In this document: in pieces, positions 1 to 13,241 of the stretch | How the letters are laid out: each line of letters begins with the position of its first letter | Position numbering within the stretch: the stretch's first letter is position 1 | Source of the DNA: Lachnospiraceae bacterium | GTDB lineage: Bacteria > Bacillota_A > Clostridia > Lachnospirales > Lachnospiraceae | DNA length: 13,241 bases | Reading direction: 5' to 3' | NCBI GenBank assembly: GCA_017542725.1 | Contig: JAFXWR010000148.1 | Coordinates: 1-13,241, forward strand | Made by a program: the position numbers and the translations under genes | The notes under the pieces: generated by a model | The model's input: the letters and a program-made list of their open reading frames with translations, nothing else | Databases searched by the model: none | Told to the model about the DNA's origin: nothing

Positions 1-3000
1 TAATTGTATCTATGATTTTCACAACAGGAGGTTTTGCGACACTCGCAGACTCTGTTTCTGATGTCATAGAAACTTCTGAAAGTGGGAAGATAAGTCAGGC
101 AGAACTTTCTCATAAATATTATGATGATCTCGTAGGCGCCAGTGATGATGTAGGAGAGACATTTGACGAGTCCGAAGATAGTGATGTAGGGGCGAAGCTT
201 AGCGAGCCCGAAGAAGATGATGCAGGGGCAAAACTTAGTGAGCCCGAAGAGAAAGAAGATGAGCCATCATCAAATGAATACGCTGAAGAGCCAGAAGATG
301 ATGGAACTACTGTATCATCTGATGCAGAGCAAGATTTTGATGGAGAAGAGACAACAACTGTAGAAGTTACTACAGAAGAATTGACATCTGAAACTACAGT
401 TATTGTAAATGAAGAGACAACAACAACTAATATAAATGAAGAACCTACCTCTACTACAATTATTCCAGAAGAGACAACAACAACTGAACCTACAACAGTT
501 GTGCCTAAAGAAATTACTAATACTGAAAGTAGTAGCACTGCCACTGATAGTGAGATAAGTGATGCAGAAAATCAAACTGAAAATAACATATCAACAAGTA
601 GTGATGCAGTAGAAGATGTAGAACTTAATAAAGAAACTGCAACTAATAGTGAAACATTTGATATTTCATTATCAAGTAATTCTGAAACTACTAATATAAA
701 CTTGCAAGAGATAGGCATAGCAAGCCTTTCAGAAATAAGTTTAGCAAGTTCTTTTCAACTTTTTGGTGCCGGTTCATTCCCATCACACATTTGGTTTGGT
801 TCATATCCACAGCATGATACAAGTGGAGTGCAGTATGAACCTATAAAGTGGAAAGTGTATGAATATAATACCGACCTGGACACTATTATAGATGCAAATA
901 CAGCACTTTTAGTTTCTGAAAATATACTTGACAATGTTCCTTTTAATAATTCATATGCACAAGTCAACTGGGTGAATTCGTCTATTAAAAGTTGGCTAAA
1001 TAATGATTTTATAAATAGTGCTTTTACAACAAATCTAATTAATAGTGATGCAATACATACAAAAAGTATATTATATGATGACCACCCTGAAGTTATGGCA
1101 TGGGATAGTGGTAATAAAGCAGTCCTGATGAGAATAGATGATATTAGTTGGGTATCATCCGTTTGTCATGATAACTCTTTAAAGATAGCACAATCTTCAA
1201 ATTATGCAAGAAGGAATGGAACCTTACTGGAATCAGATGGAAATTCACCTTGGTGGATTTTGCAGCAGTCTCAAAATATAGGTACAGCAAATGCCGACGC
1301 TTTGTCAAGAGATGGCACTATTGAAGGCTATAGTGTGGACAGTAATCAAGTAGGTGTTCGCCCTGTCATGTTTATTAATCTCAATTCGCAAGTAATAAAA
1401 ATGTCTAATAATACTATTAATTGGGATTTAAATGGTGCAGAATGGAAAACAGAATCAGCCTTATGGGGAGAAATGAATACATATCAAGGTGGTCAAAAAC
1501 TTCCAACAGCAGACAATTTAAATATACCAGAAGGTAAGTACTTCTTTGGTTGGATAGATATTAATAATCCAGATACTATCATAACAGAAATCCCAACTAA
1601 TACAACAGGTGAGTTATCTTTAAAAGCACAGATTGCTGATTCAATATTGCTTGGTACTTATCCACAAAATAGTACTAATTCCGATGTAGTTGAGCCTATA
1701 AAATGGAGAATATTAAAAAGGGATGGAAATGAATTATTATTACTTTCAGATAAAATACTTGACAATAAGTCTTTCCATAGTACAGATACTGCAGGAACTT
1801 CTAATTGGGTAACTTGGAGAGATAGTGATATACGTAGTTGGCTTAATAATGAGTTTAAAGAAAAAATGTTTCCACAAAGTCAAATAGATAATTTGATTAA
1901 GGAAAAACAAATCACAACAAGAAATTATCACCAAGATAATGGCTATAGTGATAATGTAACAAATGATAAAATTATATTATTATATTATACTGATGTAGAA
2001 AATTGGACTACTGATGCCGATAAAAGAAAATCTGAAGGAACAACTTATGCAACAACAAAAGAAAACTATGGAATGCGATTGGATGCATATTATCATAATG
2101 GTTATTATCCATATTGGCTTCGAGGAGAGTCTGTCTATCATACTTCAAATATAATTGACCCACCAACTTATAATATTGTAAACGAAGCAGGAACCATAAA
2201 TAGGGAAGGGCGAGTTGGACATAGTAATCAGCATGGAACAGGTGGTATCCGTCCTGCTATATATATTGATATGTCATCATCTTTTTATCTATCTCCAAGT
2301 AATACTTTGACCTGGGAATTTGAATCTCAGTTTTCAGGAGTTAGTGTTTCATTTAATGAAGTTAGTTCATTATGGAATGAAAAAAATACTTATTTTGCTG
2401 GTGATATACTACCAAAAGAAAATAATTTAACTATGCCGGAAGGATATACACTTCATGGATGGTATATAAATGATAATTATGATACAATTTACACTTCTAT
2501 CCCTACTGATATGAGTGGTGAGATAACTGTAAGACCTCATCTTGAGCCTACAGTCACATGGGATTTAGGAATATATGGAGAGTGGGTATCAGGGAACCCT
2601 CCATTTACAGTTGCAACTTATGGCGAAGTTCAAACCTTACCTGATGTTTCTGCTATTACAGTAAATAATACAGTTAGTTTTTATCAATGGACAATAGATG
2701 GTATAGAAGCAACATCTATAGAAGCAAATAGGACAAGACCAGTAAAAGTAATTGCTCAATATAAATATGCCAATGAATTATTATTTGGTGCATTTCCACA
2801 GAGTAGCACAGATTATAGTGCAGATGACCCAATAAGGTGGATAGTTTTATCAACTGATAATAATAAACAACTTCTTATCTCGGAAAGAGTTCTCAATGAA
2901 ATGCAATTTGCATCTGGTGATGTGCGATATTTTGGTGGTACTCCAGTAAAGAATTGGTTAAATGATGAGTTTTATAATAAAAGTTTTAAAGACTTTGAGA

Positions 3001-6000
3001 AGGACGCAATAAGTGATAATATCATAAATGAAAGTTATTATCACGAAGATCAAGGCTTTACTGTAATAACATATCCTACAACTACTTGCAAAGTACGTTT
3101 ATTGTCAAGAGATGAATGGAATGGTTATAGACCACCAGTTTCGTATGACAATACACATGGAACTGAAAAAAATTATTGGACATGTACATATGTAGGAAGA
3201 TATGATACACCTACTTGGTATAAAAATATCTATATGTATGATGCTGAAACAAACAATATTGTGACAAACAGCAAATACAATCAATCTGGTGTTCGCCCCG
3301 TAATTAATATAGATTTGAATAATGAATTCTTTAATGCAACAGAAAGTAATATTACTTGGCAGTTAGGAGAAGATGTCGGTTTCTTTGAAGGTTCAACATG
3401 GAATTATTTTGTAAAGTATCGTGAAGGGTATGAACAAAAACTTCCGACTGATGGCAACTTTGCAGTAAAGCCAAATGGCAAAGTTCTTATCGGCTGGTTT
3501 GTTGATGATGGGACAAAATTAATCGCAGCACGTAGTGTCCCAAAAGAAATGAGAGGTGATATAACACTTACTCCTATCTGGGGCACAGAAGGACAAAAAC
3601 TTATTAAGTATAATTTATACAATAAAGATACAGGTGAATATGGAAGATTTACTACTGAACCACCATATGTATATACACCAGGAACAGCACTCACTTTGCC
3701 AGATGTGTCAACTGTTGAGACACCAAGTGGCGAGTTAGTAGCGAGATGGCAGAGAGATAATAATGTTGTCACTCATATTCCGTCTACAGAAACTTCTGAT
3801 GTTGAAGTTTTTGCAGATTTTAATACAACAGGTGTATGTAAAATCGGATACGATTTAGGCAACGGACATTTTAATATAGCAACTCCATCTGAACGTGTAA
3901 TTGATACTGATTTTATAATCCCAGCAAGTACAAGTGTAGTGCCACCAGTTGGTTATAAGTTTTCACATTGGATATTGAAAACTGAGAGTGGAGACATTCT
4001 TAGTGACAATGCTACATATGTTAGTGGTGAGTATGTAGGTAATGTAAATGTTGTGGCAGTATATGATAATCTTATTTATAATATAACTTGGGATTTAGGA
4101 CCTAGTCGATTTGTTGATGGATTTGCAACACCATCTACCTATACTTATGATATAGAATACATATTTCCAGATAGTAATAAAGTAATTGCATTAACAGATA
4201 AAATACTTGACCACTGGGAGATAGATGGGGTAAGAACTACTAAATTAATTCCAGGTGATATAGGACCTAAAACTATAAAAGCAATTTATAGTGATAGAAT
4301 TATATGGTTTGGTACATATCCACAAAGTAGTACAGATTCTAATGTTGTAGAGCCAATAAAATGGGTAGCACTAAGTAATGATGGATATAAAAAATATGTT
4401 GTGTCAGATAGAGTCCTTGATAAAAAGCAGTTCCATAATGTTGACTATACTCCACTAAGTTATTTAGATAGTTCTTTAAAAACTTGGTTAAATACAACAT
4501 TTTTAAACAAAGCCTTTGAAAATGCGGAACAAGATGCAATAACTGATAAAAGTTTGATATCGGATAATTGTAAGATATTAATTTTGTCAGGTAGTGATTG
4601 TGAAAGTGTAAATTATCCGATGCCATCATATGATAATCATTATGTAACTATACAAACATTTTGGCTTAGAGATATAAGTTGGGTTGGGCATTATCGGTAT
4701 CCCGATGTTTGTGTAGGTAAAGATGTTACAAAAGGTGCATATGATGCAAATCATGTAGTGGGCGTTCGACCATCAATGAATATTGATTTATTATCAGATT
4801 ATATTAATGCACCTGAAAGAAACATTACTTGGCAAATAGGAACAGCATCATTCCTTGATGGTTCAACTTGGCCTGAGTGGACTAAATGTCGTGAAGGTTA
4901 TGGACATAAACTTCCAACTGATGGAAACTTTGCTACAAGACCAGATGGCAAGGTTCTTATTGGTTGGTTGATTGACAATGGAGTATATAAAGTAGCAACA
5001 CATAGTATCCCATCTGATATGAGAGGGGATATAACACTTAAGCCTATCTGGGGCATTGAAGGTCAAAAACTTGTTAATTATAATTTATACAATGAAGTGA
5101 TAGATGAATATGGAAGATTTACCACTGAACCATCATATGTGTATACACCAGGAACAGCACTCACTTTGCCAGATGTGTCAACTGTTGAGACACCAAGTGG
5201 CGAGTCAGTAGCGAGATGGCAGATAAATGACATTGTTGTTACTGAGATATCGTCTATGTCTACTACTGATGTTGAAGTTGTAGCAAATTATAATGTAGCA
5301 GGTACATACAAAATAGTATATGATTTAGGCAATGGACATTTTAATATCGCAACTCCATCTGAACGTGTAATTGGTACTAACTTTATACTTCCAGCAAGTA
5401 CAAGTGTAGTGCCACCATTTGGTTATAAGTTTTCACATTGGATATTGAAAACTGAGAGTGGAGACATTCTTAGTGACAATGCTACATATGTTAGTGGTGA
5501 GTATGTAGGTAATGTAAATGTAGTGGCAACATATGATAATCTTATTTATAATATAACTTGGGATTTAGGATCTGGGCGATTTGTTGATGGATTTGCAACA
5601 CCATCTACCTATACTTATGATATAGAATACACATTTCCACTTGGTAAAGTAGTGGCACCAGAAGACAAAGCATTTAACCACTGGGAAATAGATGGAATAA
5701 AAGTTGATAAGTTGATTGCAGGTGATTATGGGGATAAAACTATAAAAGCATTTTATCATGATAAGTATATGTGGTTTGGTACATATCCACAGAGTGTTCG
5801 TTGGCAAAGTGATGGTTCAGCATATGATGCAGTAGAGCCTATTAAGTGGATAATGCTTGATAATGATGGTGCCGAGGCATTGCTTGTAGCAGATAAAATT
5901 CTTGATAATGTAACTTATCAATCACAACCACAGTCAGTAGTAAACCCACGAAATTCGTGGGAAACAAGTGAGATGAAAGTTTGGCTTGAAAATACATTTT

Positions 6001-9000
6001 ACAATAAAGCATTTTCGACAAATGAAGAAAAAGCGGGAGTAATAAACAAAGCAACTTTATTATCGGCTGAAGAAGCAAGAAATGTAAAATATTTTGCTAA
6101 TAACAATGAAAGAAAGGTAGATGGAACAGAATATGCAAAAACTTTAGTTAATGTTAATAGGACATTACATAGAGAAAATGGTTATTGTCGTTGGTGGCTA
6201 CGTGATGGTCAAGGTGGTGAACTTAAAGTTGGAATGGTAGAGTTTACTGGAGAAGTGAGAACTGGAGATAGTGGATTCCATGCAACAGATAGATATATTG
6301 GTGTCCGCCCTGTTATACATGTAGATTTATCATCTCCTATATTAAAAGCCACAGAAAGTAATATAACATGGCAATTAAGAATAGATACAAGATTTATAAA
6401 TGAAACAACTTGGACAGATTGGAATAAATACCGTGAGGGCTTTGAACATAAACTTCCAACTGAAGGAAACTTTAGTGCAAAACCAGATGGCAAAGTACTT
6501 ATAGGATGGCTCATTGATAATGGAACATATAAAGTAGCAGCACACAGTATCCCTAAAACTATGAGAGGTGATATTACACTTACTCCTATCTGGGGCACTG
6601 CAGAGCAAAAAATAATTAGTTATGATTTATATAATGATAATACAGGTGAGTGTGGAAGATTTACTACTGAACCACAATATGTGTATATACCAGGGACAGC
6701 AGTTACTCTACCAAATACATCAACTGTTGAAACTTTAAGTGGAAGTCAAGTGACTAACTGGAGGATAGATGGAGTAGATGTTTTAGAAATTCCTTCTACA
6801 AGTACAGGTGATGTTCAGGTAAAAGCAATGTTTACTGATTCAAACTTTTTTAGAGTAGACTTTGACTTGATAGGTGGAAGTTTTGTGAGTGGCTTTTCAA
6901 CTCCATCTGAGTATGAGAGAGGAGTAGGACTGACACTTCCAACAAGTGCAGATATTGATTTGCCACCAATGGCAACTGGACTTTCTCACTATATATTATC
7001 TGATATATATGGAAATGTAATAAATGAAAATACAACTGAAATTAGTGACACACAAGTGGGATATGTGAAAGCAACAGCAGTCTATGAATATCAATCATAT
7101 AATATTGATTGGCAACTTGGAACTGATGTAAGTTGGAAGATAGGATATGTAGCATCTGCATCTTACACATATAATACTGGCTTAACTTTGCCAGATGCAA
7201 GTGTTTTAAATTTACCTACTGGAAAAGGATTTTTAGGTTGGAACATAAGGCAGGTTGGAAAACCAGATATACTAAATGCACAAGTGATAGAACCTTTAAG
7301 TATAGGTGATGTAACTGTAGTAGCACACTATAATGATGAAAGTTTTGCTATTAATTGGGAACTTGGGAATGGACATTTCATAAGTGGTTTTGCAACACCA
7401 TCTAATTATAGGGGTGGCACAGGACTTACTCTCCCAACAGGTGATAAAGTAGTGCCACCACGTGGTATGTTTTTTGACCATTTTGAAATTGATGGCATAG
7501 AAGTCACAAGCATACCTGCAGATGCTCAAGGAGAAAAAACTATAGTTGCAAAATATAGATATGATTATATATGGTTTGGAACTTATCCACAAAATGATGC
7601 AAGTGGCATAGAACTTGAACCAATTAAATGGAGAGTTTTATCAAGAAATAATAGCGAAATGCTTTTACTTGCTGAAAATATACTTGACAATGTATCATAT
7701 TATGATGGAAATACTGGTAATGTCAGATGGGCAAATTCAGCACTTAGAAGATGGTTAGATGAAACGTTTAAAAATAAAGCATTTACAACTAATCAAATAG
7801 ATTTAGGCATAATGGAAAAGACCATACCTGCAGATGAAGTAAGTCCAAATGACAAAGTATTTTTATTATCAAAAGATGAATCAAATAGTTATTTTGAAAC
7901 TATTAAAGATAGAATTGCAACAGCATCAAATTATGCGAAAAATGTTGATAATGATGGAGTGAGATTATCAGTAGATACAAATGGTCATTCACCTTGGTGG
8001 CTCCGCACAAGACAGCCTGCTTCATTGCAACAAGGGGAAGGAACAATTAAGTCTGATGGTGATTTAGAATTTTTAGCAGCAGATTTAAATGATATTGGTG
8101 TCCGTCCTGCTATATATGTGAGTCTTTCAACTGGCACAATTAAAACATCTGATAACCACATAAGTTTTAATTTAAATGGTGCAACTTGGAGAGAAAACTC
8201 AAAACTTTGGGCAGAGATGACAACTTATCAAGGTGGACAAAAATTACCAACTAGTGTTAATTTGAATTTGCCAAGTAAAAAGTATTTGGCTGGCTGGGCT
8301 ATAAATGGTGACCCTGATAATATAGTAACAGAGATTCCAAAAGATGAGACAGGTGATATAGAGTTAGTTGCAGTATTCGAGGACTATTATGATATATGGT
8401 TTGGTATGTATCCACAAAGTGTCACATGGCAAAGTGATGGTTCTACATATGATGTAGTTGAGCCTATCAAATGGAGAATGCTAAACTATGATGGTAGAGA
8501 GGCTTTTCTTGTGGCCGATAAGGTACTTGACAATGTAACTTATAGGTCAGTAAATGACAATGAGTGGGAGGATAGTCATCTGAAACCTTGGCTTGAAAAC
8601 ACATTTTATAATAAAGCATTTTCAACAGATGAAGAAAAAGCATCAATTAAAAACAATGTATCTATATTGCTACAGGCAGAAGCGAATAATAGTCAGTATT
8701 TTGCAAACAATGATGCAAGAAAGGCATTAGCAACAGAATATGCAAAGACTGTAGTTAATGGGGACCAAACATTATCTATACAAGACGGCTATAGCCTTTA
8801 TTGGCTTCGTGATGGTGGTGGTTCTTACTTCACAACTGGAGTTGTTGAATATGCTGGAGGATTGAAACTTGGTGTAATATCGCACTTAGTAACAGATAGA
8901 TATGTTGGTGTCCGACCTGTTTTCAATATAGACCTTACATCACCACTACTTAGTGCTAACGAAAGTAATGTTACTTGGCAAATTGGAACGGCAAGTTTCT

Positions 9001-12000
9001 TAAATGAATCAACTTGGCCAGAGTGGAATAAGTATCGTGAAGGTTTTGAACATAAACTTCCAACTGATGGCAACTTTAATGAAAAACCAGATGGCAAGGT
9101 ACTTATAGGTTGGTTAATTGATAATGGAATTTATTCTATAGCGACATATAGTATCCCAAGTGATATGAGAGGAGATATAACTCTTAAACCTATCTGGGGT
9201 ACTGCAGGTCAAAAATTAATTAATTATGATTTGTATAATGAAACTATAGGTGAGTATGGAAGATTTACTACTGAACCTCCATATGTTTATACTCCTGGAA
9301 CAGCACTTACTTTACCAGATGTGTCAACTGCTGAAGATTTAAATGGAAATGCTGTATCTTCTTGGAAGATAGATGGAGTACAAGTTACTGAAATACCATC
9401 TACTGCTACTTCTGATGTTGAGATAAAAGCAGACTTTAATCCTGATACAGGTGTATATAAAGTAGAATTTGATATGGGTGACGGGCACTTAACTATAGCA
9501 ACACCATCAAATTATACATATGGCACTGGATTAACTCTTCCAGTAAGTATAAATGTGGTTCCGCCAATTGGCAAAACATTTTCTCACTGGGATTTAAAAG
9601 ATGCAAATAGAAATATTATAAGTGGTAATGTAACTGAAATTAGTAATTCACAAAGAGGATATGTCAAAGTAGTTGCAGTATATAAAAATACCTCATATAC
9701 TATTAACTGGGATTTGAGAGGTGGACAATTCATAGATGGATTTGCAACACCATCAGAATATACACATGGTACAGAATTTACTCTTCCTACAAGTGATAAA
9801 GTAGTGTCACCATTCACAAGACAGTTTGACCACTTTGAGATTGATGGAGTGGAAGTTACAAGTATAACAAAAGATTCCTATGGAGATAAAACTGTAGTTG
9901 CAGTATATAATTATGATTATTTATGGTTCGGCACATATCCACAAAACGATACTGAAGGAAAACGGCTTGAACCTATCAAATGGAGAATCATATCTCAAGA
10001 TGATGATTCAATGCTTTTACTTGCTGAAAACATACTTGACAATGTTTCTTATGAACCATCGGCAGACTCAAGTCCAGTCTGGGGAAGTTCACATCTTAAT
10101 ACTTGGTTAAATGATGAATTTTTAAATAAAGCATTTACTGCAAATCAAATAAATGATGGTATAGTTGATAAAACAATAACAACGGGAACTGAAACTTCGA
10201 CTGACAAAGTCATGTTATTGTCAGATGATGATATAAATAATTATTTATATAGTAGTAAAAAATTAAGCAAAGCAACAGCATCAGATTATGCGAAGAGTGT
10301 TGACAATGATGGAAATACATTGACAGTAGAAAATGGTAATTCACCTTGGTGGCTTCGTGATAGACAAATAGTAACTTCATATTATAGTCAAATGACAATA
10401 GATGCTGATGGCAATAGAACATTATCATCTCCAAACTCAAAAGTTATAGGTGTCCGCCCTGCTATATATGTTGACCTTTCAAACAATATAATTAAAACAT
10501 CTGGAAATAATATACATTTTAATCTAAATGGTACAACTTGGAGAGAAGACTCAAAACTTTGGGCAGAGATGACAACTTATCAAGGTGGACAGAAGTTACC
10601 AACTGGTGCTAATTTAAATCTGCCAAGTAAGAAATATTTTGCTGGTTGGGTTAATGTTGAAGACCCTGACACAATTTTAACTGAAATTCCAAAAGAGCAA
10701 ACTGGTGACATAGAATTATTTGCAACATTCGCTGATTATCACGATATATATTTTGGAACATATCCACAGAGTGTCACTTGGCAAAGTGATGGTTCTACAT
10801 ATAATGCAGTAGAGCCTATCAAATGGAGAATGTTAAATTATGATGGTGCCGAGGCATTACTCATAGCAGATAAACTACTTGATAATGTATCATTTAGTTC
10901 AGGCACTAATAGATGGAGAGATTCAAGTGTTCGAACTTGGTTAAATAATACATTTTACAATAAAGCATTTTTATCAGATGAAGAAAAAGAAGGACTAAAT
11001 CTTAAAACGATAGAGACCAACGTAAAAGGTACTAGTTCACCAGATATAACTTCTGATTATGTATTCTTCTTGACTAAAGAAGAAGCAAGAAATAGTGAAT
11101 ATTTTGCTAATAACAATGAAAGACAGACAAAAGGAACATCTTATGCCAAGTCTGTACTTAATGATGGGCACCGATTATATATACGAAATGGTTATGGTCA
11201 TTATTGGCTCCGCTCTTATGGTGACTCTGCACATGGAAATAATCGTGTAAGTAATATAACAGAATATGGATCTGTGGACGAAAATGATCCACCAACAAAC
11301 AAAGACCGTGGTGTCCGCCCTGTTATATGTGTAGATTTATTATCTCCTATATTTAATGCTAAAGAAAGTAATGTAACTTGGCAGATAGGAACAGCAAGTT
11401 TCTTAAGTGATTCAACTTGGAGAGAAATCACAAAATATCGTGAAGGTATTGTAAATAAACTTCCAGTTGATGCACATTTTAGTGCAAAGCCAGAAGGCAA
11501 AGTACTTATAGGTTGGTTAATTGACAACGGTACATATAAAATAGCAACATATAGTATCCCAAGTGATATGAGAGGTGATATTACTCTTAAACCTATCTGG
11601 GGAACAAGTGGTCAAAAATTAATTAATTATGATTTATATAATGAAGCGACTGGACAATATGGTATATTTGCAACTGAACCACCATATGTATATACACCAG
11701 GTGTAGTAGAGAATTTGCCAAATCCAATGACTGTTGTAGACCCAACAGGAATAGAAGTGTATGTTTGGCAGATAAATGGAGAAGATGTATATGACATACC
11801 TTCTACAAGTACCACAGATGTCAAAGTCAAAGCAATCTTTAATGATGCAGGTATAAATAAAGTTGAATTTGATATGGGAGGAGGCCACCTAACTATATCA
11901 ACACCATCACAATATACTTATGGTGTAGGTTTGTCTCTTCCAGCAAGCACAAGTGTTGTTGCCCCATTTGCCAAAAAGTTTTCTCACTGGAGTTTAAAAG

Positions 12001-13241
12001 ACTTGAGAGGAAATATAATAAGTGAGAATGCAACTGAAATAAGTGGCACACAAAGGGGTTATGTGAATGTAGTGGCAGTATATAATTATGCAACATATAC
12101 TATAAATTATAATAATGTCATAGCAGGTGCAACTATAGATAATACAAGTTTTGAAAGAACATATGGTTCTTTAGATACAGTACTCGCCAGCCCTTCAAAA
12201 ACTGATTACACATTTGTAGGTTGGTATAGAGATTATGATGAAGCAACCCACACATACGAAAATGAATATACTGGAAATGATGATATATATGTGCAAGGTG
12301 CTACTAACTATACAATTTATGCAAAGTGGAAAGCAAAAGTAACTTACAATGTAAATGGTCATGGAGTGCTCCCAGCAGTAACTCCTGAATATACTGATGT
12401 AGATTTGTGGAATGCTATGACACTTGCTACACTTTCAGATGTCATAGGATACACATTTGACCTAACTCACAGTTGGTATGATGGTTCTGACATAAGCACT
12501 GCATCATTCATAGGTTCAGCAGGAAGCGATTATACTGTAACAGAACCAAAGATACTTTATGCTCGCTGGAATGAAAATATTTATGATGTGAATTATCATA
12601 TGGATGGTGGAAGTTGGAAAGCAAATGCATATAATAAGGCAACAAGGTCATATACAGAAAGACTTACTTTACCTACATCAGATGATATAGAAAAAGTTGT
12701 AGGAGATGATGCCTATGAGTTTGATGGCTGGTGGACAAAGGATGGTAATGTAGAGACAGATTGGGGAGTAAAAGTTGAACTCATAAATGAAGGTGTTAGT
12801 CAAGATGTAGATGTATATGCTAAGTGGAAATCAACAGTATCATTTAATGCAAATGGTCACGGCACTGCTCCGGCATCAGTTGAGATAAGTGGTACACAAG
12901 ATATAAGACTTTCAAGTTTAAGTGAAATCGGATGGACATTTGGTGGATGGTACAAGAGTGCTACAGAGTTCACTGATGATAACTTTGTAGGTTTTGGTGG
13001 TGATACAATCACATTTAATGGACCAAGGATTTTATATGCAAGGTGGAAAGCAATAATAATTTACAATGTAAATTGTCATGGAGCATTCCCAACAGGAACT
13101 ACTGAACGTATCGATGTAGATGATGGGCATACTATAACACTTGAGACACTTTCAGATGTCATAGGATGGACCTTTGACACAACTCACAGTTGGTATGATG
13201 GCTCTGACATAAGCACTGCATCATTCATAGGTTCAGCAGGA
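1..13241 (+). CDS. Giant modular secreted/surface protein with nine DUF6273-like modules and InlB/Flg_new-type beta repeats (partial at both ends)
   Basis: One uninterrupted frame (first full codon at base 3) spans the window, giving 4,413 residues with neither start nor stop codon. Order: end of a signal peptide (1-15), acidic and Thr-rich disordered region (16-262), nine DUF6273-like modules (263-3779) separated by beta-repeat linkers, then Flg_new repeats (4031-4413, cut). DUF6273 has no established function that I know of; Flg_new/InlB B-repeats are typical of exported surface proteins, where they form stalks. I infer a long extracellular adhesin or ligand-presenting fibre. No catalytic motif, thioester Cys-Gln, LPXTG or SLH domain is visible; an anchor, if present, lies beyond 13241. 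Codons are AT-rich with AGA arginine and TGG tryptophan, so the standard code fits. All other open frames here are shadows of this gene. The reading frame is certain; the role is a guess. Confidence 0.95.
3..50 (+). other. C-terminal part of a probable signal peptide
   Basis: Residues 1-15 (IVSMIFTTGGFATLA) are hydrophobic and small, and are followed at once by a polar acidic region. This matches the end of a Sec signal peptide with signal peptidase I cleavage after Ala15 (Thr at -3, Ala at -1). The positively charged n-region and the real start codon must lie upstream of the window. The ATG at base 12 (Met4) is unlikely to be the start: it would leave no charged n-region, and no ribosome binding site precedes it within the visible bases. 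Confidence 0.7.
51..350 (+). repeat. Acidic low-complexity region with a 12-residue tandem repeat
   Basis: Residues 16-116 are dominated by Asp, Glu, Ser and Pro with almost no aromatics, so probably disordered. The 9-residue string GAKLSEPEE occurs at 63-71 and 75-83, a 36-bp tandem repeat at about 189-251, and a weaker relative (DVGETFDESED) precedes it. Codons here (GCG, GGC, GCC, CTC, CCC, TCC) are richer in G+C than in the rest of the gene. Probably a flexible, highly charged N-terminal tail; no domain recognised. Confidence 0.75.
345..788 (+). repeat. Thr/Ser/Glu-rich spacer with repeated E-E-T-T-T motif
   Basis: Residues 115-262 are rich in Thr, Ser, Glu and Asn. EETTT(T) recurs at 115-119, 137-142 and 156-161, encoded each time by nearly the same bases (gaagagacaacaac). 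Such Thr-rich stretches are common as extended, sometimes O-glycosylated spacers in surface proteins; glycosylation is inference. Residues 225-258 become more hydrophobic and may lead into the first folded module. No known domain is visible. Confidence 0.7.
789..1382 (+). repeat. DUF6273-like module 1 (type alpha, divergent)
   Basis: Residues 263-460. Signature order: FGSYPQ 265-270, EPIKW 279-283, VSENILDN 304-311, an Ile-Lys-Ser-Trp-Leu strand at 328-332, PWW 416-418 and GVRPV 451-455. It carries two insertions against the other alpha modules, one after EPIKW (about 285-300) and one around 345-385 holding Cys389. The usual Trp-Leu-Arg reads Trp-Ile-Leu, so the conserved Arg is lost. The segment 421-450 before GVRP is unique to this module. 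Function of the family unknown; a ligand-binding head is inferred. Confidence 0.8.
1383..1643 (+). repeat. Short beta linker (type B) between modules 1 and 2
   Basis: Residues 461-547 hold one InlB/Flg_new-like unit: INWDLNGAEW near the start, then the YQGGQKLP turn (494-501), a G-W step at 516-517 and a closing strand with T-G-E-L-S-L. The same unit, with the YQGGQKLP turn unchanged, follows modules 6 and 8, so type B joins closely spaced module pairs. Assigned from the pattern W-D-L-N-G ... L-P ... G-W ... T-G-x-I/L-x-L; individual units would score weakly in a profile search. Confidence 0.7.
1644..2273 (+). repeat. DUF6273-like module 2 (type gamma)
   Basis: Residues 548-757, the longest module. 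GTYPQ 551-555, EPIKWRIL 564-571, LSDKILDN 581-588, Ile-Arg-Ser-Trp-Leu-Asn-Asn at 610-616, YWLR 704-707 and GIRPA 748-752 (Ile replaces the usual Val). Its segment between WLR and IRP is 40 residues, also the longest, and is rich in Asn, His and Tyr. A His/Asn/Tyr-rich stretch around 641-652 is not shared with other modules except for a faint YYH echo in module 3. Confidence 0.82.
2274..2777 (+). repeat. Linker of two beta repeats between modules 2 and 3
   Basis: Residues 758-925. The first unit (about 767-846) resembles type B: L-T-W-E-F, a Leu-Trp-Asn-Glu-Lys-Asn-Thr-Tyr turn, LP, HGW 818-820 and MSGEITV. The second (about 849-924) starts TVTWDLG, has a YGEVQTLP turn, a WTIDGIEAT hairpin and a closing V-K-V-I-A-Q-Y strand, and so matches the last unit (A4-like) of the long linkers. 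This linker therefore looks like a B unit fused to an A4-like unit. Confidence 0.65.
2778..3317 (+). repeat. DUF6273-like module 3 (type gamma, degenerate at the W-L-R site)
   Basis: Residues 926-1105. FGAFPQ 928-933 (Phe for Tyr), DPIRW 942-946 in place of EPIKW, ISERVLNE (Asn for Asp), Asn-Trp-Leu-Asn-Asp 984-988 and GVRPV 1096-1100. The Trp-Leu-Arg motif reads Trp-Thr-Cys (1059-1061), so both Leu and the conserved Arg are missing. It departs from consensus at more signature positions than any other module. Either its binding face has changed or it is under relaxed constraint; the intact frame argues against decay. Confidence 0.78.
3318..4301 (+). repeat. Long beta linker (type A, four repeats) after module 3
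   Basis: Residues 1106-1433. Four InlB/Flg_new-like units in order: A1 (ITWQLG ... YREGYEQKLPTDGNF ... IGW ... MRGDITL ... IWG), A2 (KYNLYN ... YVYTPGTALTLPD ... RWQ), A3 (DLGNGHFNIATPSE ... SHW ... VNVVAVY), A4 (ITWDLG ... FVDGFATPSTYTY ... DHWEIDGV). From about 3340 to 4169 it aligns without gaps to 4810-5639, the linker after module 4. Contains RGD at 1184-1186. Probably a rigid spacer of about 330 residues. Confidence 0.75.
3949..4051 (+). repeat. 103-bp perfect direct repeat, copy 1
   Basis: Bases 3949-4051 are identical to 5419-5521 (offset 1,470 bp). They encode the centre of unit A3 (the KFSHWILKTESGDILSD region and onward). Over the wider block 3931-4169 I count 8 mismatches to 5401-5639 in 239 bases. 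This is the most conserved DNA I found in the window and indicates a recent duplication or gene conversion. Confidence 0.9.
4302..4790 (+). repeat. DUF6273-like module 4 (type gamma, shortest)
   Basis: Residues 1434-1596, about 163 long. WFGTYPQ 1435-1441, EPIKW 1450-1454, VSDRVLD in the third strand, a Leu-Lys-Thr-Trp-Leu-Asn step, FWLRD 1553-1557 and GVRPS 1587-1591. It is shortened between the WLN and WLR motifs. It has three Cys (1523, 1533, 1570) in a protein otherwise poor in Cys, one of them inside the variable segment 1557-1586; a disulphide is possible but not shown. Confidence 0.82.
4791..5768 (+). repeat. Long beta linker (type A, four repeats) after module 4
   Basis: Residues 1597-1922, units A1-A4 in the same order as the linker after module 3 and aligning to it without gaps at a 1,470-bp offset from about 4810 to 5639; after 5640 the last unit diverges. 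RGD at 1674-1676 within MRGDITLKPIWG. Cys1629 replaces the Tyr of the usual YREG turn. Differences from the module 3 linker cluster at the two ends, with the centre almost identical. Confidence 0.75.
5419..5521 (+). repeat. 103-bp perfect direct repeat, copy 2
   Basis: Identical to 3949-4051 and in the same frame and unit (A3). The equivalent A3 units after modules 7 and 9 keep the protein pattern but not the bases, so the identity is specific to this pair and not a requirement of the fold. Confidence 0.9.
5769..6329 (+). repeat. DUF6273-like module 5 (type beta)
   Basis: Residues 1923-2109. WFGTYPQ 1924-1930, then WQSDGS 1934-1939, a beta-type hallmark shared with modules 7 and 9; EPIKW 1945-1949, VADKILDN, Val-Trp-Leu-Glu-Asn, a YFANNNER helix-like stretch near 2029-2036 also seen in 7 and 9, RWWLRDG 2063-2069 and GVRPVIHVDL 2100-2109. 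Compared with module 7 it has about six extra residues around 1975-1987, where a perfect DNA palindrome sits. Variable segment 2068-2099. Confidence 0.85.
5945..5961. repeat. Perfect 8-bp-arm palindrome inside module 5
   Basis: CCCACGAA, one central A, TTCGTGGG: a perfect inverted repeat, GC-rich in an AT-rich gene. In RNA it could form a six-pair stem with a five-base loop. It encodes Pro-Arg-Asn-Ser-Trp in frame and lies where module 5 carries extra residues against modules 7 and 9. No second copy was noticed in the window. Confidence 0.75.
6330..7568 (+). repeat. Longest beta linker (type A plus one extra unit, five repeats) after module 5
   Basis: Residues 2110-2522. A1 (ITWQLR ... RGD 2188-2190 ... 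IWG), A2 (SYDLYN ... VYIPGTAVTLPN ... NWRIDGV), an A3-like unit (DFDLIGGSFVSGFSTPSEY ... SHYILSD ... VKATAVY), an extra unit at about 2367-2446 (IDWQLGTDVSWKIGYVASASYTY ... LGWNIRQVG ... VTVVAHY), then A4 (INWELGNGHFISGFATPSNY ... DHFEIDGIEVTSIP). The extra unit makes this linker about 85 residues longer than the others and separates the gamma/beta first half from the alpha-beta pairs. Confidence 0.75.
7569..8126 (+). repeat. DUF6273-like module 6 (type alpha)
   Basis: Residues 2523-2708. IWFGTYPQNDASG from 2523, EPIKWRVLS, LLAENILDN, a Leu-Arg-Arg-Trp-Leu-Asp step and NKAFTTNQI; then SNYAKNVDNDG, SPWWLR 2663-2668 and GVRPAIYVSL 2699-2708. All signature positions are intact. Alpha modules share AENILDN and SPWW before the Leu-Arg. 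Variable segment 2669-2698. Closest relative is module 8. Confidence 0.86.
8127..8393 (+). repeat. Short beta linker (type B) between modules 6 and 7
   Basis: Residues 2709-2797: one beta unit with FNLNGATWRENSKLWAEM, the YQGGQKLP turn, AGW, and TGDIELVA. Nearly the same as the linker between modules 8 and 9 in both protein and DNA; the linker between modules 1 and 2 is a more distant copy. The short spacer would hold the two heads of a pair close together. Confidence 0.75.
8394..8936 (+). repeat. DUF6273-like module 7 (type beta)
   Basis: Residues 2798-2978. IWFGMYPQSVTWQSDGSTY from 2798, EPIKWRML, VADKVLDN, Pro-Trp-Leu-Glu-Asn, YFANND near 2899, LYWLRDGGG 2932-2940 and GVRPVFNIDL 2969-2978. 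Its variable segment 2937-2968 resembles module 5 more than other pairs do (both have D-G after WLR, V-V/M-V-E-Y/F, a G-x-L/V, and TDRY before GVRP), so 5 and 7 may share a ligand class (inference). Confidence 0.86.
8937..9920 (+). repeat. Long beta linker (type A, four repeats) after module 7
   Basis: Residues 2979-3306, units A1-A4 as after module 3: VTWQIGTASFLNESTW ... YREGFEHKLPTDGNF ... RGD 3056-3058 ... IWG; NYDLYN ... VYTPGTALTLPDVSTA ... SWKIDGV; EFDMGDGHLTIATPSNYTYGTGLTLP ... SHWDLKD; INWDLRGGQFIDGFATPSEYTHGTEFTLP ... DHFEIDGVEVTSI. A3 and A4 here are closest to the textbook InlB/Flg_new pattern and support assigning the linkers to that family. Confidence 0.78.
9921..10478 (+). repeat. 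DUF6273-like module 8 (type alpha)
   Basis: Residues 3307-3492. LWFGTYPQND from 3307, EPIKWRII, LLAENILDN, Leu-Asn-Thr-Trp-Leu-Asn-Asp, NKAFTANQI, SDYAKSVDNDG, SPWWLRD 3447-3453 and GVRPAIYVDL 3483-3492. The same length as module 6 (186 residues), yet the segment 3453-3482 between WLR and GVRP shares little with it. Confidence 0.86.
10479..10745 (+). repeat. Short beta linker (type B) between modules 8 and 9
   Basis: Residues 3493-3581. HFNLNGTTWREDSKLWAEM, YQGGQKLP, AGW and TGDIELFA. A near copy of the linker between modules 6 and 7. Confidence 0.75.
10746..11339 (+). repeat. DUF6273-like module 9 (type beta)
   Basis: Residues 3582-3779. YFGTYPQSVTWQSDGSTY (Tyr replaces the first Trp), EPIKWRML, IADKLLDN, Val-Arg-Thr-Trp-Leu-Asn-Asn, a YFANNNER stretch shared with module 5, HYWLRSYGD 3733-3741 and GVRPVICVDL 3770-3779. 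It has an extra stretch near 3667-3682 (LKTIETNVKGTSSPD) relative to module 7. Variable segment 3738-3769 is rich in Asn, Ser and Asp. The most C-terminal head in the window. Confidence 0.85.
11340..12092 (+). repeat. Beta linker (type A, three repeats) after module 9
   Basis: Residues 3780-4030: A1 (VTWQIGTASFLSDSTW ... YREGIVNKLPVDAHF ... RGD 3857-3859 ... IWG), A2 (NYDLYNEATGQYG ... VYTPGVVENLPN ... VWQINGEDV), A3 (EFDMGGGHLTISTPSQYTYGVGLSLP ... SHWSLKD ... VNVVAVY). No A4 unit follows; the sequence passes straight into a different repeat class. A2 is the most divergent copy in its TALTLPD region. Confidence 0.75.
12093..12332 (+). repeat. Flg_new/InlB B-repeat unit U0 of the C-terminal stalk
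   Basis: Residues 4031-4110: YTINYNNVIAGATIDN, an ERTYGSLDTVLA turn, FVGWYRD 4074-4080 and closing IYAKWK 4105-4110. This is the canonical Listeria-Bacteroides repeat pattern (GWY ... YAKW). It marks the change from head-bearing linkers to a plain stalk. Confidence 0.85.
12333..13049 (+). repeat. 717-bp stalk superrepeat, copy 1 (units U1-U3)
   Basis: Residues 4111-4349, three Flg_new units: U1 12333-12572 (VTYNVNGHG ... HSWYDG ... ILYARWN), U2 12573-12830 (YHMDGGSW ... FDGWWTK ... VYAKWK), U3 12831-13049 (VSFNANGHGTAP ... FGGWYKS ... ILYARWK). The second copy starts 717 bp after U1 and matches it closely in DNA, for example 12491-12524 against 13208-13241. Confidence 0.88.
13050..13241 (+). 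repeat. 717-bp stalk superrepeat, copy 2 (cut by the window edge)
   Basis: Residues 4350-4413 repeat U1: IIYNVNCHGAFP, then the same LSDVIG, THSWYDGSDISTASF and IGSAG stretches. It is still open at the last base, so the stalk continues downstream for an unknown number of copies. Cys4359 stands where U1 has Gly. Confidence 0.88.

Follow-up and report, generated by a model that had tools for sequence, protein, structure and literature searches.

The window, as we call the whole 13,241-nucleotide stretch of Lachnospiraceae DNA analysed here, is spanned by a single open reading frame (ORF) whose product carries nine tandem DUF6273 modules with one hypervariable segment each. We conclude that these nine segments are probably the variable sites of nine C-type-lectin-like domains in a multivalent surface adhesin or receptor, and that a diversity-generating retroelement (DGR) probably does not act on them. 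The protein family, fold prediction, segment boundaries, equivalence to phage variable regions (VRs), substitution rates and a mosaic allele were computed; exposure, ligand binding and adhesion we infer.

786..1424, + strand: DUF6273 module 1, variable segment 1263-1352
1641..2315, + strand: DUF6273 module 2, variable segment 2124-2243, structure model m71e65cc440df
2775..3359, + strand: DUF6273 module 3, variable segment 3183-3287, 99% identical in the G002 allele
4299..4832, + strand: DUF6273 module 4, variable segment 4671-4760
5766..6371, + strand: DUF6273 module 5, variable segment 6204-6299
7566..8168, + strand: DUF6273 module 6, variable segment 8007-8096, PHROG match 'Hoc-like head decoration' (E 6.5e-6)
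8391..8978, + strand: DUF6273 module 7, variable segment 8811-8906, structure model mfe1c6902c0a8
9918..10520, + strand: DUF6273 module 8, variable segment 10359-10448
10743..11381, + strand: DUF6273 module 9, variable segment 11214-11309

A variable segment in a conserved frame

The segments are all in frame, run from after a W-L-R-like border to before G-V-R-P, and measure 30, 40, 35, 30, 32, 30, 32, 30 and 32 residues in modules 1 to 9. An original prediction made from the DNA letters held that they differ in sequence and length (30-40 residues), and the comparison bears this out. Pooled over 36 module pairs, 212/1023 segment residues are identical (20.7%) against 2397/5657 in the remainder (42.4%), with the segment lower in 35 of the 36; shuffled segments give 19.6%. 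The further claim that the borders are conserved in every module is mostly right, except that an exact W-L-R occurs in only 7/9 (module 1 has WWIL, module 3 YWTC) and GVRP in only 8/9 (module 2 has GIRP). The predicted 2,352-bp superrepeat is real, and repeat analysis finds modules and linkers repeating as described.

Within the window, the segment is the most variable part of the module. When the alignment is anchored at both borders and the segment is set against 251 intervals matched in the number of residue pairs compared, it scores lowest (0.198) and the lowest non-overlapping interval reaches 0.265, with the qualification that a second, ten-residue loop (module 7 residues 51-60) is equally variable at 0.20. 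The segment is not featureless, because core residues of a hairpin are conserved. Over 57 bacterial segments, counting rows with a residue at the position, a hydrophobic residue occurs in 54/56, a glycine in 44/55 and a second hydrophobic in 51/57. The window segments keep the first residue (aliphatic) in 9/9, the hairpin glycine in 8/9 and the second hydrophobic in 6/9. The same core is found in three phage templates, that of Lelie lacking the last residue. Shuffling of segments among modules was also considered: nearest neighbours by segment and by scaffold disagree in 5/9 window modules, and swaps are unproven because segment identities in those five are too low (0.38-0.45).

Family and predicted fold

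A Pfam search of the whole protein yields eight DUF6273 (PF19789) stretches at 325.7 bits, against a curated cut-off of 23.5, and single-module scans exceed the cut-off in all five modules submitted (of nine). Structure models of modules 2 and 7 match solved C-type-lectin-like members, so that the modules are predicted to have this fold and the earlier guess of such a fold appears right in kind. The segment is modelled confidently in module 7 (blocks 80, 95, 87); in module 2 confidence dips there (blocks 73, 79, 85, 59).

Calcium-dependent sugar binding by C-type lectins is marked by EPN/QPD and WND motifs, which are absent from all nine modules. Tethering disulfides are not supported, as four modules have no cysteine and three have one. 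FGE-sulfatase and FISUMP domains, whose kinship had been proposed from the ending motif, resemble the modules in that motif by eye and have a distantly comparable fold class. Neither PF03781 nor PF09603 is among the profile matches listed for the 5/9 modules scanned with an E limit of 10. The FGE-sulfatase family is marked by catalytic cysteines, and the nine modules share no conserved cysteines, these included. FGE and FISUMP entries do not appear among the fold matches listed, which excludes nothing.

The segment is equivalent to phage DGR variable regions

In the accessible portions of two reports, DUF6273 is a target of phage DGRs with a C-type-lectin-like model (PMC10743442, PMC11792537), and the VRs are placed at the C-terminus of the domain (PMC11792537). 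In phage Roos, 16 positions distinguish the VR (25781-25914) from the template repeat (TR, 26821-26954); the template has A at every one of them, and the VR reads WWLR ... GVVPGF. Lelie has 17 differences, again all at template A, and a VR reading WWLR ... GVRPA. Phage nd4 has 16 at template A; six others lie at the two ends of the stretch, beyond the repeat or on its margin. The A changes fall between the W-L-R and G-x-x-P borders in 15/16 (Roos), 16/17 (Lelie) and 16/16 (nd4) cases, the two exceptions being one base just outside the borders in Roos and one in Lelie. All three phages are thus mutated in the region that forms the segment of the window modules, and the variability of the window is located in the equivalent of the phage VR.

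Each of the three phage proteins scanned has one DUF6273 stretch. A scan of viral contigs with the module alignment returned 13 pattern stretches, none confirmed, and tblastn against phages gave two weak matches. The Lelie template repeat also matches, more weakly, a site far from the DGR (L070:40447; four non-A and seven A mismatches in 60 bases), which is perhaps its second target.

Divergence among relatives

The prediction that the segment evolves faster than its flanks is partly upheld. In eight DNA pairs, three of which share modules, the segment exceeds the rest of the module in nonsynonymous rate (dN) in 8/8 and in the ratio of dN to the synonymous rate (dN/dS) in 6/8; the ratio exceeds 1 in only 3/8, and never outside the segment, and dS is also higher in 7/8. 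Six of 37 DNA modules lacked anchors and were left out. Comparison of the loops across relatives is similarly mixed: segment identity is lower in 12/13 ortholog pairs picked by hand, but among 33 one-use pairs picked by rule it is lower in 17, higher in nine and equal in seven (861/1044 in the segment, 5216/5783 outside). Thirteen of these 33 are 0.99-1.00 identical outside the segment and mostly represent the same gene in two records; among the 20 below 0.985, the segment is lower in 15 and higher in five. The 33-pair analysis dropped 45/171 modules and retained G1C9_-_1, which was set aside as mis-anchored in the analyses of template positions, nearest neighbours and codon endings.

In an 810-residue protein joining TPR-like, TIR and DUF6273 domains, the segment does not vary over 38 rows (P0060 and 37 similar; 4/42, namely P0062, P0064, P0086 and P0092, were left out by length or make-up). 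The segment is therefore not variable by nature, and its variability depends on the protein. This protein is a possible sensor-effector, although PADLOC gives no match at E up to 0.001. In other fusions (P0092, P0052, P0048, P0108) the partners of DUF6273 are protein kinase domains, a ubiquitin-like domain or a Lectin_C-bearing lipase; P0092 and P0052 are recognised by kinase-type models of PADLOC.

The segments might instead be unconstrained loops of spacer domains that bind no ligand and diverge under relaxed selection only. The near-shuffled segment identity, the dN/dS values mostly below 1, the absence of the hairpin glycine from module 3 and the lower model confidence in module 2 are all compatible with this. 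We nevertheless regard it as fairly unlikely: both borders and the hairpin core are conserved, module 7 is modelled confidently through the segment, length is held to 30-40 residues in the window, and phage DGRs keep and target exactly this segment.

No sign of a DGR at this locus

The window contains 241 A-only repeat intervals, all in ordinary repeats, and none overlaps a segment by at least 30 bases, in a scan confined to the window and thus to TRs lying within it; the control counts are 110 for T, 17 for G and six for C. The same kind of scan recovers the TR/VR pairs of Roos and Lelie. Differences involve A in 0.59 of cases within segments and 0.69 elsewhere, and segment differences are spread alike over codon positions 1, 2 and 3. 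A profile search with RVT_1, which does detect the DGR reverse transcriptase (RT) of nd4, finds an RT in neither of the two nearest genomes and in 2/12 genomes of the genus. These two (L072, L073) have no TR/VR-like pair in the surrounding 15.5 and 6.1 kb. Judged by eye, one resembles a group II intron RT and the other a retron RT. In the window segments, codons ending in C or T make up 0.531 against 0.519 (p 0.75; higher in 6/9 modules). Comparison of DGR-mutable template positions with variable bacterial positions (mean BLOSUM -0.43 and 0.57) goes in the expected direction and is not significant (p 0.14). On balance, the evidence speaks against a DGR at this locus.

The codon endings of the relatives weigh the other way. 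Their segments contain 410/664 (0.617) C- or T-ending codons against 0.513 (p 7e-7), the excess occurs in 18 of 21 modules, and control intervals range from 0.36 to 0.54. It is seen in L054, L053, L057 and other relatives. For scale, the fractions are 0.85, 0.62 and 0.87 in the VRs of Lelie, Roos and nd4, and 0.67, 0.62 and 0.68 in the corresponding whole genes. One reading is that former DGR-type sites became fixed as a genomic repertoire: a phage DUF6273 scaffold was adopted, the retroelement was lost, and nine or more faces were diversified by duplication, drift and module exchange. On this view the vanished DGR would have left its mark in the excess seen in relatives, whereas the window segments show none. 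We hold this to be unlikely; if true, it would provide combinatorial, population-level receptor diversity without hypermutation.

A mosaic allele

A second version of the gene lies on contig C40 of genome G002, which may belong to another species than the window. Module 3 and adjoining linkers are 97-100% identical between the versions (synonymous divergence, pS, 0.01-0.07), module 2 is 62-76% identical by part (pS 0.22-0.38) and module 1 23-47% (pS 0.54-0.61); an additional 81-residue stretch precedes module 2. The module 3 segment is retained at 33/34 residues. Such steps in identity inside one gene, in this one allele, point to recombination and module replacement.

Mosaic alleles are a usual trait of surface antigens that experience diversifying selection, and module replacement in a large, probably exposed protein would also suit antigenic variation, in which the diversity responds to predation, phage or host antibody and not to ligand choice. 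This is distinctly improbable, given that the longest variable stretch coincides with the predicted binding site of the fold and is not spread over the module. A DGR that mutates the segments in trans, or recently did so, would account for the shared VR position and for the C/T excess of relatives as a footprint of AAY template codons, but is highly improbable in view of the unbiased codons and A-only scan of the window, the low share of A and even codon positions, the retained module 3 segment, and the scarcity of RTs, both without a nearby TR/VR-like pair.

Architecture and host of the protein

3..13241, + strand: single ORF open at both ends, 4,413 residues visible in translation
3..60, + strand: putative signal peptide tail, cut by the contig edge, from similarity to the G002 allele and P0003-P0005
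61..785, + strand: acidic, Ser/Thr-rich stalk, from translation
3381..3680, + strand: first copy of a conserved 300-nt linker repeat (family D1), further copies at 4851, 6393, 8997 and 11400
12096..12326, + strand: best stretch of Listeria-Bacteroides (InlB-like) repeat PF09479, from Pfam

The product is probably a giant surface protein and likely secreted. Its first residues appear to be the tail of a signal peptide, as the G002 allele and P0003-P0005 have a similar N-terminal stretch with a few extra residues ahead of it. The stalk contains a 36-nt tandem repeat (167-250), apparently in fewer copies in the G002 allele, and four linkers of the 300-nt repeat were aligned. The C-terminus falls outside the window; in the close relatives P0002 and P0003 the chain finishes with choline-binding repeats. 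Those relatives that carry a name belong to the Lachnospiraceae: P0002, and two metagenome-assembled genomes obtained from the reticulum of goat and water deer. The host is thus most likely a Lachnospiraceae bacterium of the rumen. For modules 6-9, identity to relatives reaches 56-57% and 47% at best, with no close allele among them. DUF6273 occurs in 12/12 genomes searched from the genus of the nearest relative, with 3 to 29 matches each, and a single-module protein search yielded none. Large open frames in this genus comprise 14,398 (G009:C3), 14,230 (G012:C1) and 8,517 residues (G005:C21); those of G012 and G005 carry DUF6273.

Proposed function

In the model that we favour, of lectin-like domains diversified without a DGR, the W-L-R and G-V-R-P borders and the rest of the module would build a scaffold. 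The intervening 30-40 residues would form a strand or hairpin with loops, giving each module a different surface. This segment is very likely the ligand-contacting face, because DGR-bearing phages mutate the same segment of their own DUF6273 proteins. Modules would have come to differ through tandem duplication, through a segment that diverges faster than its surroundings, and through alleles trading entire modules. The protein would most likely be a long multivalent adhesin or receptor, in which InlB-like repeats may serve as spacers and choline-binding repeats, seen in relatives, as a cell-wall anchor. The array suggests one protein displaying many binding faces.

In Pfam, DUF6273 is still a family of unknown function. 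The accessible parts of the literature naming it treat a phage DGR target, a phage genome listing and mentions in other bacterial proteins, and describe no tandem DUF6273 arrays. Its presence in every genome searched from the genus therefore indicates a substantial and barely studied collection of likely binding domains. Since phages mutate the same segment, swapping segments between single modules gives a direct test of a ligand-binding role. The array also lends itself to studying how lectin-like repertoires can diversify when no retroelement is involved.

Comparison with known systems

The closest counterparts are the phage DGR targets (tentaclins; Faecalibacterium phages Roos, Pioen and Lelie), which share with the window modules the Pfam family, the predicted C-type-lectin-like fold and the variable segment from W-L-R to G-x-x-P, for Pioen as far as the accessible text goes. 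In the three phages scanned, each protein has a single DUF6273 stretch, mutated by an RT, whereas the window has nine tandem modules in a surface protein without a DGR signature. The N-terminal domain of the Thomasclavelia ramosa IgA protease IgAse (PDB 9qa6) is a single domain beside a metallopeptidase, in contrast to the tandem array. FGE-sulfatase and FISUMP domains are alike in their ending motif and differ in profile and cysteines, as described above. The major tropism determinant Mtd and TvpA, with an FGE-type C-type-lectin fold, place variable residues on a conserved scaffold near its C-terminal end, according to the accessible part of PMC5006420. Neither is among the matches listed; they resemble the window in the position of the variable site and, unlike it, are diversified by DGRs.
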